Below, in pieces: positions 27,211-57,379 of a stretch of DNA of 64,000 nucleotides. Source of the DNA: Hyphomicrobiales bacterium (GTDB lineage: Bacteria; Pseudomonadota; Alphaproteobacteria; Rhizobiales; Beijerinckiaceae); contig JAQGJX010000198.1 in NCBI GenBank assembly GCA_028290405.1, positions 1 through 64,000 on the forward strand. The letters run 5' to 3'. Within the stretch, counting starts at the first letter, position 1. Each line of letters starts with the position of its first letter. The translations under genes and the position numbers were made by a program. Below the pieces are notes generated by a model that searched no databases, was not told the DNA's origin, and saw only the letters and a program-made list of their open reading frames with translations.

Positions 27211-27582
27211 TTAGCCGCGGCGGTCCAGGCTGAGCGCCAGGTTCTCGGCCATGCGCTCGGCGATGTCGATGAGGAGGTCGGCGTCGCCGGGCTCCAGCCG
27301 CTCACGGCAGGCGCCGCGGAACAGCTCCAGCCAGCGCGGCAGATGCGCGGGCTGGATCGCCGCATGGCGCAGATGGGCGGGCATGAAATCGCGCCCCGGG
27401 TACCCGGCGCCCAATCGGGTCACGGTGAGCCAGAACTGCGTGATCTTGTCCAGGTGCGCGTCCCAGCCGTCGCCGATGATGGGCTCGAAGACCGGCCCGA
27501 GCGCGTCGTCGGCCCGCACGCGGCCGTAGAAGGCCTCCACGACGCCCCGGATCGCCGGCGCGGTCAGGCACGCGCCCGTCAC
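27211..27582 (-). CDS. Group III truncated hemoglobin (first copy)
   Basis: A 123-residue 2-over-2 globin. It shows VEAFYGRVRADDALGPVFEP, the distal region HLDKITQFWLTV, and a proximal-helix segment FMPAHLRHAAI with the likely heme-binding His. Group III globins can bind O2 and NO; detoxification of NO is a proposed role. The GTG start (27582-27580) overlaps the stop of the upstream small gene as GTGA, so translation is coupled. Two NsrR boxes upstream of that gene place this globin in an NO-response operon. A second paralogue lies at 56915. Confidence 0.87.
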   Translation of the reverse strand: MTGACLTAPAIRGVVEAFYGRVRADDALGPVFEPIIGDGWDAHLDKITQFWLTVTRLGAGYPGRDFMPAHLRHAAIQPAHLPRWLELFRGACRERLEPGDADLLIDIAERMAENLALSLDRRG

Positions 27583-27737
27583 ACGAACAGCAGCGCGACG
27601 AACGCGGCGAGCAGGTTCCAGAACAGCATGTTGATGAGGGTGCGGATCATCCCGCGGTCGTCGGTTTCGCTGGCGCCCAGCATGTTGGACACGATGTCGC
27701 CCGGCAGCAGAAAGCCCCTGGTGAGAACTGCGACCAT
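27579..27737 (-). CDS. Small membrane protein coupled to truncated hemoglobin
   Basis: A 52-residue protein beginning MVAVLTRGFLLPGDIVSNML, with a C-terminal membrane helix (TLINMLFWNLLAAFVALLFV) that ends at the last residue. ATG 27737 has GGAG 7 nt upstream; longer in-frame starts lack one and would run into the regulator sites. It is the first gene of a two-gene operon with truncated hemoglobin, below two NsrR boxes. I know no family for it; a role in anchoring or assisting the NO response is only a guess. Confidence 0.6.
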   Translation of the reverse strand: MVAVLTRGFLLPGDIVSNMLGASETDDRGMIRTLINMLFWNLLAAFVALLFV

Positions 27738-27778
27738 GATTTCGCTCCGCATTTGCGCCTTGCGCGGCCATCGTGCAA

Positions 27779-27801
27779 AAGGTGCATTACTGATGTACCT
27801 T
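27779..27801. promoter_or_regulatory. NsrR box 1
   Basis: An 11-1-11 inverted repeat: AAGGTGCATTA, C, TGATGTACCTT. The arms match at 9 of 11 positions. The spacing and the AAG-TG-ATT half-site agree with the NsrR operator described in E. coli and other bacteria. It is 42 bp before the small membrane protein start. Confidence 0.7.
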
Positions 27802-27815
27802 ACGCCGGCCACGTA

Positions 27816-27838
27816 AAGATGCAATCTGCTTGCACCTT
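27816..27838. promoter_or_regulatory. NsrR box 2
   Basis: A second 11-1-11 inverted repeat: AAGATGCAATC, T, GCTTGCACCTT, with 9 of 11 positions pairing. It is centred 37 bp from box 1 and 46 bp before the nsrR ATG, so the divergent promoters, including nsrR itself, are likely repressed together. Confidence 0.65.
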
Positions 27839-27883
27839 TACAGGCGCGACGTGGCGCCGCAGCGCCGACGAGAGCTCAAGGCG

Positions 27884-28333
27884 ATGAAACTCACGCGCTT
27901 CACCGATTATTCCCTGCGGGTGCTGATGCATCTGGGGCTGAACCAGGGCCGGCTGTGCTCAATTTCCGAGATCGCGCGGGCGAACCGCGTGTCGGAGAAC
28001 CACCTCACCAAGGTGGTGCATCGCCTCGGCCAGATCGGACTCGTGAAGACCGTGCGCGGGCGCGGGGGCGGCATGAAGCTGGCGTTGCCGGCGGGCGAGA
28101 TCAGCGTGGGCCGGGTGGTGCGCGAGACCGAGGAAGGGTTCGACCTTCTCGATTGCGGCGCGTGCCTGCTGACGCCCGCGTGCGGGCTGACGGGGGCGCT
28201 GGCCAAGGCAGTCGGGGCCTTTCTGGAGGTGCTGGACGGCTATACGATCGCCGACCTCATCAAGCCCGGCGACAGGCTGCGGGCGCTGCTCCAGATCGCG
28301 CCGCTCGAGACCGCGTCCGCCGCCTCGGACTAG
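27884..28333 (+). CDS. nsrR: Rrf2-family nitric-oxide-sensing repressor NsrR
   Basis: A 149-residue winged-helix regulator opening MKLTRFTDYSLRVLMHLG, like NsrR. Recognition helix VSENHLTKVVHRLGQIG and wing VRGRGGGMKLALP follow. Three cysteines, C91, C94 and C100 (DCGACLLTPAC), fit iron-sulfur ligation; the first two are closer together than in E. coli NsrR (C-x4-C there, C-x2-C here). NsrR loses its cluster to NO and releases its operators. Two matching NsrR boxes lie upstream, supporting this over other Rrf2 members such as IscR. Confidence 0.88.
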   Translation: MKLTRFTDYSLRVLMHLGLNQGRLCSISEIARANRVSENHLTKVVHRLGQIGLVKTVRGRGGGMKLALPAGEISVGRVVRETEEGFDLLDCGACLLTPACGLTGALAKAVGAFLEVLDGYTIADLIKPGDRLRALLQIAPLETASAASD

Positions 28334-56914: not shown

Positions 56915-57379
56915 TCACCCGGCCCGGATCGGCGCCTTCAGCGGGGGCAGCACCCCACGGTGGAAATCGAGCGACAGGCGCAGCGACTGGGCGATGCGCT
57001 GGGCGCGGTCCAAGAAGATGTCGGCGGCGGCCGGCGGGCACACCTCGCGCGCGGTTTGCTCGAACAGCTTCAGCCAGTGTTCGAAATGCGCGTGTTCCAG
57101 CCCCGGGATCTTTATGTGGGCGGGCACCGGACGGCCATCGTACCGGCGCGTCATCAGCACCACCGACGACCAGAAGTCGCACATCTTGGCCAGATGCGGG
57201 TCCCAGTCCGAAATTTGCGCGGCGAAGATCGGGCCCAGCGTCTCGTCCGCGCGGATGCGATCGTAGAACGTGTGCACAAGCCGATGGATCATCGCCTCGT
57301 CCACGCCAGCCTCCGCTCCGGGCGGCGGCGGGCGGTTGACAACGCGGGGCTCAGGCCTGGAGCCGTTGGCTTCGCTCAT
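56915..57379 (-). CDS. Group III truncated hemoglobin (second copy)
   Basis: A 154-residue globin with a Pro-rich N-terminal extension of about 30 residues (VVNRPPPPGAEAG) absent from the copy at 27211. The globin part has VHTFYDRIRADETLGPIFAA, HLAKMCDFWSSVVL and proximal region PVPAHIKIPGLEHAHFEHW. GGAGGA precedes the ATG, within an inverted repeat at 57381-57403. No NsrR box is seen, so this copy is probably controlled differently. gpt lies 100 nt upstream on the same strand. Confidence 0.88.
   Translation of the reverse strand: MSEANGSRPEPRVVNRPPPPGAEAGVDEAMIHRLVHTFYDRIRADETLGPIFAAQISDWDPHLAKMCDFWSSVVLMTRRYDGRPVPAHIKIPGLEHAHFEHWLKLFEQTAREVCPPAAADIFLDRAQRIAQSLRLSLDFHRGVLPPLKAPIRAG

Follow-up and report, generated by a model that had tools for sequence, protein, structure and literature searches.

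In its iron-sulfur (Fe-S) form the regulator NsrR binds DNA; on meeting nitric oxide (NO) it loses affinity and derepression follows, according to the accessible portions of two papers (PMC4432287, PMC6950321). The first of these, as far as available, describes a 23-bp site in which two 11-bp inverted repeats flank a single base, with conserved AA/TT ends. The available text of a 2005 paper (PMC1274295) predicts tandem NsrR sites at Bacillus subtilis hmp, proposes glbN-lpg2536 as the sole NsrR target in Legionella, and reports no NsrR in alphaproteobacterial genomes except that of R. capsulatus E1F1. Accessible passages of a survey of rhizobial globins list 43 class 3 genes, with NsrR near one flavohaemoglobin gene (PMC4648194), and a role claimed for NsrR in Magnetospirillum (PMC11014258) was contested in 2026 (PMC12774639), to judge from the available parts of these two papers. 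The literature found in our search, which took in few subscription papers, contains no description of the small membrane protein discussed below or of NsrR control of a group III globin.

The locus considered here lies in a 64,000-nucleotide stretch of a Hyphomicrobiales draft genome (hereafter the window; the draft comprises 4,071,990 bases in 223 contigs and is 99.65% complete). We think it probable that the locus is a self-contained NO-response switch, in which an Fe-S NsrR acting at two operators would repress itself and an smp-trHb3 gene pair until NO relieves the repression. Its features are as follows.

27884..28333, plus strand: nsrR, Rrf2-family regulator, 149 aa (Rrf2 domain PF02082; best PDB match NsrR 5N07; tree and residue table)
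27579..27737, minus strand: smp, 52-aa small membrane protein (SMP) of an undescribed family (translation; family in other genomes; structural model)
27211..27582, minus strand: trHb3, group III truncated globin, 123 aa, GTG start (PDB entry 2IG3, by sequence and by fold)
27738..27883, no strand: divergent regulatory gap, 146 nt, between the start codons at 27884 (nsrR) and 27737 (smp)
27779..27801, no strand: predicted NsrR-type operator, box 1, matching the consensus at 15 of 18 positions; centre 53 nt from the smp start codon
27816..27838, no strand: predicted NsrR-type operator, box 2, matching at 15 of 18 positions; centre 57 nt from the nsrR start codon

The start codons at 27884 (plus strand) and 27737 (minus strand) confirm the divergent arrangement of nsrR and the smp-trHb3 pair across the 146-nt gap that a first-pass annotation had described. 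The interval assigned to the locus there, 27579-28333, takes in nsrR, the gap, and smp; trHb3 (27582-27211) falls almost entirely outside it. The GTG start of trHb3 at 27582 overlaps the smp stop codon (GTGA), and its own stop lies at 27211. The neighbouring genes encode an FAA-hydrolase and two TctC-type receptors (Pfam), with no visible link to NO.

Two operator boxes in the divergent gap

The two 11-1-11 inverted repeats noticed earlier are present as reported: box 1 (AAGGTGCATTACTGATGTACCTT) and box 2 (AAGATGCAATCTGCTTGCACCTT) each pair at 9 of 11 positions. Palindrome content by itself was rejected as evidence, since pairing at 9 or more of 11 positions occurs at 30 places in the window, and of 20,000 dinucleotide shuffles of the gap, 755 hold at least one such palindrome and 17 hold two apart. 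The boxes are significant because of their letters. As a ruler we used the published NsrR core gATGyAT-N5-ATrCATc (from the available text of PMC1274295) with AA/TT ends, for 18 scored positions. By this motif search, which the first-pass annotation had proposed, both boxes score 15/18; they are the sole sites of at least 15 in the window, the next best scoring 13. Among 20,000 shuffles of the gap, one site of at least 15/18 appeared in 3 and two sites in none, and 60 dinucleotide shuffles of the whole window gave a mean of 0.017 such sites per 64 kb.

The boxes also stand out in the genome. Only four places in the 4.07-Mb draft, both boxes included, come within three mismatches of the consensus, a reversed-pattern control in the same genome gives none, and a stricter pattern made from the boxes themselves matches only these two. 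The other two places were not counted as regulon members: one (on contig C36) has two mismatches, fewer than the boxes, and lies inside an open frame reading like ribosomal protein S21; the other (C25) has three and lies 92 nt before the ATG of a frame that reads like a LysM protein or lipoprotein. In this genome the regulator probably controls little or nothing beyond this locus. The box starts are 37 bp apart, and the distances of their centres from the two start codons (53 and 57 nt) suggest that one box serves each promoter and that nsrR is autoregulated. No sigma-70-type promoter was found in the gap, a point against reading the locus as an NO switch.

The regulator and its relatives

The nsrR product contains an Rrf2 domain (PF02082, 109.5 bits against a cut-off of 30). 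It scores 130.9 against the NCBIfam model for NsrR (cut-off 182) and 132.8 against that for RirA (cut-off 193), missing both; we count the missed NsrR cut-off and the slightly higher RirA score against an NO switch, the equivalog cut-off being a database threshold and not a biological trait. The regulator of an hmp-linked relative (L133) misses as well (140.1 for NsrR and 141.4 for RirA), as do five further relatives scanned, for both models. Three Cys residues lie near the C terminus, with the loop at residues 91-100. The window's loop, C-x2-C-x5-C, is unique among the 46 regulators compared, the 45 others having five to seven residues between the first two Cys. This shortening could alter the cluster and is likewise counted against the switch.

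These scores and the altered loop would suit an Rrf2 protein of RirA or IscR type whose signal is iron, Fe-S status, or O2 and not NO, with a globin serving O2 metabolism, as the Campylobacter group III globin is said mainly to serve microaerobic growth in the accessible parts of PMC9686644. We hold this to be quite unlikely. According to the available text of PMC10510648, residue 8 is an Asp that ligates the cluster in NsrR and an Asn in RirA. The window regulator has Asp8, not the Asn8 of RirA, together with Arg12; Asp8 is found in 45 of the 46 tree rows, the window included, and Asn8 in the remaining one (L131). The operators are of NsrR type, and the closest relatives are hmp-linked with the same paired boxes.

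In the 46-row tree the nearest rows to the window (L132, L133, L129, and L128) belong to the same family and are 57-61% identical; three of them (L132, L133, and L128) are hmp-linked. The smallest group with good support (95/88) joins the window, these four, and two rows of family f74; a closer join of the window with the f74 rows is weaker (87/69). With Asp8, three Cys, and nearest rows that are mostly hmp-linked regulators of the same family, the protein appears to be a regulator of NsrR type, as had been proposed, and NsrR control of the locus is well supported by sequence. At least three changes are needed on this tree, some deep joins of which are long-branch and unsure, for the combination of SMP with trHb3, which was therefore not simply inherited once with nsrR.

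The same arrangement recurs with a different effector. In all three hmp-linked loci of the family that were read (G153, G254, and G378), nsrR and hmp diverge from a gap with two boxes, which score 15 and 16, 16 and 15, and 18 and 14 of 18, with starts 41, 40, and 40 bp apart, respectively; the flavohaemoglobin call rests on Pfam globin, FAD, and NAD domains for G153 and on phmmer matches to the G153 protein for the other two. Three further loci of the family differ among themselves: G351 has no hmp and no site of at least 13, G323 has nsrR with trHb3 and one 13/18 site, and G291 has two Rrf2 genes and one 14/18 site. Two hmp loci outside the family (L101 and L122) have one site of at least 15 each. 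The comparison of the gap across relatives, suggested by the first-pass annotation, thus divides: the paired boxes recur before hmp in 3/3 same-family loci, and the locus is patchy within its own genus, where 28 of the 30 globin loci read have no nsrR within 1.5 kb. The exceptions are the window and G026, which has nsrR beside two tandem trHb3 genes.

Across the order, 29 NsrR-like loci, the best profile matches, were read with 1.5-kb flanks. A trHb3-type globin lies within 1.5 kb in 17, SMP in none, and neither in 12, four of which hold hmp (L101, L115, and L122 by Pfam, and L114, which is the G254 locus). Since the profile was built from three regulators, all linked to trHb3, the 17/29 is biased and not a population rate. 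The first-pass view of a group III globin as an uncommon substitute for Hmp is not supported by this sample, biased as it is, nor by Legionella, in which a cyanoglobin gene was predicted in 2005 as the sole NsrR target (PMC1274295, available text). One of the nsrR-trHb3 loci of the order, in a Hyphomicrobiales metagenome-assembled genome (MAG; L004, 2421-2443 and 2492-4562), has in series a 16/18 box, nsrR, and two globin genes, trHb3 and another of trHb3 type.

The globin and the small membrane protein

The best PDB match of the trHb3 product is the Campylobacter globin Ctb (2IG3), by sequence (E 5.2e-7) and by fold (TM 0.88). The general Pfam model Bac_globin fits poorly (15.9 bits, below its cut-off of 21), and the Ctb match decides the group III assignment, which bears out the first-pass call. 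The protein is not Hmp, being a 123-aa globin that lacks a reductase and has only the weak Bac_globin match in Pfam. The haem-pocket residues Tyr19, Phe32, His43, Trp51, His70, and Trp84 are invariant in a three-row alignment; the pocket positions are named B10, E7, F8, and G8. Two named relatives, from a Xanthobacteraceae MAG and a Hyphomicrobiales MAG, are 52 and 55% identical. Group III globins have a modest published record with NO, which lowers our confidence in the globin step: the accessible portions of one study call the NO-metabolism role secondary in Campylobacter, where the protein acts mainly in microaerobic growth (PMC9686644), and those of another describe a Helicobacter TrHb, its group not stated there, whose reaction with NO is much slower than that of a single-domain globin (PMC5577044).

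A second trHb3-type globin gene lies in the window at 56915-57379 on the minus strand (154 aa from ATG), just downstream of a phosphoribosyltransferase-like gene. It has no NsrR-type site of at least 13 nearby, and many genomes of the genus have comparable globins without nsrR.

The draft genome has three truncated-globin genes and three Rrf2 genes. A search with PF00042 at E 0.001, positive in the E. coli and B. subtilis controls, found no Hmp-type globin in it, and none of its five COX1 matches is NorB-like. Three of these are nearest to subunit I of aa3 oxidases (one above the CtaD cut-off, one below, and one a 305-aa fragment), one is cbb3 above its cut-off, and one scores 359 bits against ba3 oxidases and 26 bits against NO reductase. 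Both absences are relative to a draft that is 99.65% complete.

SMP matched no Pfam or NCBIfam family, and its model (pLDDT 86) matched no PDB fold. The model has helices at residues 2-9 and 11-19 and a long C-terminal helix at 28-51; the maximum 19-residue hydropathy is 2.29. The protein is sparsely distributed: it occurs in 2/61 relatives (2/37 in the genus, own genome included), in 22/397 genomes and 13/142 genera of the order (23 places), in 5/385 genomes of the class, own included, and in 5/398 of the phylum, all five from the same class according to the kinship column. There are 28 distinct places in total, six of which, weak or unplaced, were left out of the NO-type count (G372, G396, G072 C156, G125, G289, and G695); G125 is a fragment with a stop, G289 lies inside a 471-aa frame, and G695 lies inside a 282-aa permease-like frame. 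In the plasmid collection one Mesorhizobium record matched, and a second SMP query gave no match. The record, plasmid pB2-1-8 of Mesorhizobium sp. B2-1-8 (L155), has an SMP-like frame that resembles the unplaced G372 copy, with no NsrR-type site of at least 13 and no gene over the frame in its table, which is incomplete.

Seventeen places were classed as NO-type. In ten of them nsrR adjoins SMP (the window, G184, G079, G371, G151, G116, G076, G181, G682, and G585), and in nine of these trHb3 is also present, so that nsrR, SMP, and trHb3 occur together in nine genomes, with the gene order of the window kept in G682 and G585; G371 has a DUF1971 gene downstream instead. The remaining seven (G026 and G687, with G177, G111, G069, G228, and G270 of family f34) have an NsrR-like site of 14-17/18 just upstream of SMP, a score reached by 0-4 of 1000 shuffles. 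No nsrR was found near these seven, within about 7 kb on each side (less at contig ends) or 1.5 kb for G687; an Asp8 NsrR-type regulator is encoded elsewhere in each of the five f34 genomes and in G687. At the SMP place of G026, of the same genus as the window (L002, 357-1439, minus strand), a 16/18 box and SMP are followed by an HPP-CBS membrane protein, not a globin. Among the loci where nsrR adjoins, the canonical consensus is at best 12/18 and within shuffles at G079, G371, and G585 (332, 230, and 153 of 1000), marginal at 13/18 in G184, G151, G181, and G682 (65, 73, 51, and 35 of 1000), and 14/18 at G116 and G076 (18 and 11 of 1000). That it does no better than shuffles in several SMP loci counts against an NO switch, and in the distant groups the NO-type call rests on the adjacent genes and on a motif judged similar by eye. 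SMP nonetheless appears to be a recurring NsrR-associated family, missed by the first-pass annotation, and is the newer part of the locus.

If NsrR control is real, SMP could be the key effector, protecting a membrane target by itself, with the globin an accessory that comes and goes. The seven NO-type loci where SMP follows an NsrR-like box with no nearby nsrR found and no adjacent trHb3 fit this idea, as does G371, where SMP adjoins nsrR without trHb3. We think it unlikely, however: SMP is at 0/29 order-level nsrR loci, against 17/29 with a trHb3-type globin, and in only 22/397 genomes of the order, so that it seems to be missing from most carriers of the switch.

One may also ask whether SMP is a protein at all or whether the 52-aa frame is a by-product of the globin-gene leader. 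It is tiny, matches no family, and has a Mesorhizobium plasmid relative with no listed gene in an incomplete table. Yet Pro12, Gly13, Asp27, Gly29, Arg32, and Asn36 are invariant in 16 aligned NO-type and near SMP proteins from seven families (rows picked as profile matches, so that part of the conservation is due to selection), the frame shares a start-stop overlap with the globin gene, and several genomes have SMP following the globin or separated from it. A by-product is thus very improbable.

A second set of five SMP places (G188, G256, G404, G380, and G072 C69; L031 5690-8618 for G188, with L033, L036, L037, and L045) has a YgaP-like gene just upstream, called by Pfam for G188 and by eye for the other four. 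No NsrR-type site above 10/18 was found at these five. Around G188 are genes for a Crp-type regulator, a Sulf_transp protein, and a metallo-beta-lactamase-fold protein (Pfam), and the clusters look sulfide- or persulfide-related. NO and sulfide both inhibit haem-copper oxidases, and SMP could therefore bind, protect, or re-tune a terminal oxidase. A speculative view, which we rate as unlikely, is that SMP is an alphaproteobacterial family induced against small-molecule respiratory poisons, through NsrR and NO at 17 loci and in YgaP-like clusters at five, and that it acts on the oxidase independently of the globin.

The proposed switch compared with known systems

The NO-response switch that we favor is based on operators of 15/18 that are near-unique in the genome, Asp8, nearest regulators that are mostly hmp-linked, parts that recur in relatives, and a genome with no PF00042 globin. 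By analogy with characterised NsrR proteins, an Fe-S NsrR repressor would occupy the gap's two operators, each closer to one of the two start codons, and repress both itself and the smp-trHb3 unit; NO would damage the cluster and repression would lift. The later steps are conjecture: the group III globin might bind or oxidise NO, and SMP might act at the inner membrane, either together with the globin or alongside it. A globin lacking a reductase would need an electron donor, and SMP could supply membrane contact; its occurrence without an adjacent globin makes an independent membrane role possible. The earlier view that regulator, sites, and globin lie together is upheld, in that a predicted NsrR-type regulator, two of the genome's four good sites, and a group III globin as the putative target share one locus.

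The switch type is already known; the new part is the tiny membrane protein, which recurs beside such switches under NsrR control and has no name in the libraries used. This appears to be a near single-target NsrR circuit in a genome in which neither an Hmp-type globin nor a NorB-like COX1 protein was found, so that it offers a setting free of those two enzymes in which to test what group III globins do with NO, a matter of dispute.

Among described systems, Legionella glbN-lpg2536 resembles the window in a small globin that replaces Hmp and in a predicted single-locus NsrR regulon, but pairs a cyanoglobin with a ferredoxin-reductase-like partner where the window has a group III globin and a small membrane protein (PMC1274295, available text). 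Campylobacter Ctb is, like the window's globin, of group III and there belongs to a nitrosative-stress regulon; unlike the window, its regulator NssR belongs to the Crp-Fnr superfamily and also controls Cgb (PMC3820574, accessible parts). Loci of the same order in which an Rrf2/NsrR gene lies beside a trHb3-type globin (17/29; L003, L004, and L134) match the window in this pairing, whereas SMP is absent from all 29. The nsrR-hmp loci G153, G254, and G378 share with the window the regulator clade, the divergent layout, two 23-bp boxes, and similar spacing, but their effector is a flavohaemoglobin where the window has SMP and a reductase-less group III globin, a contrast that amounts to a natural effector swap behind one operator layout.
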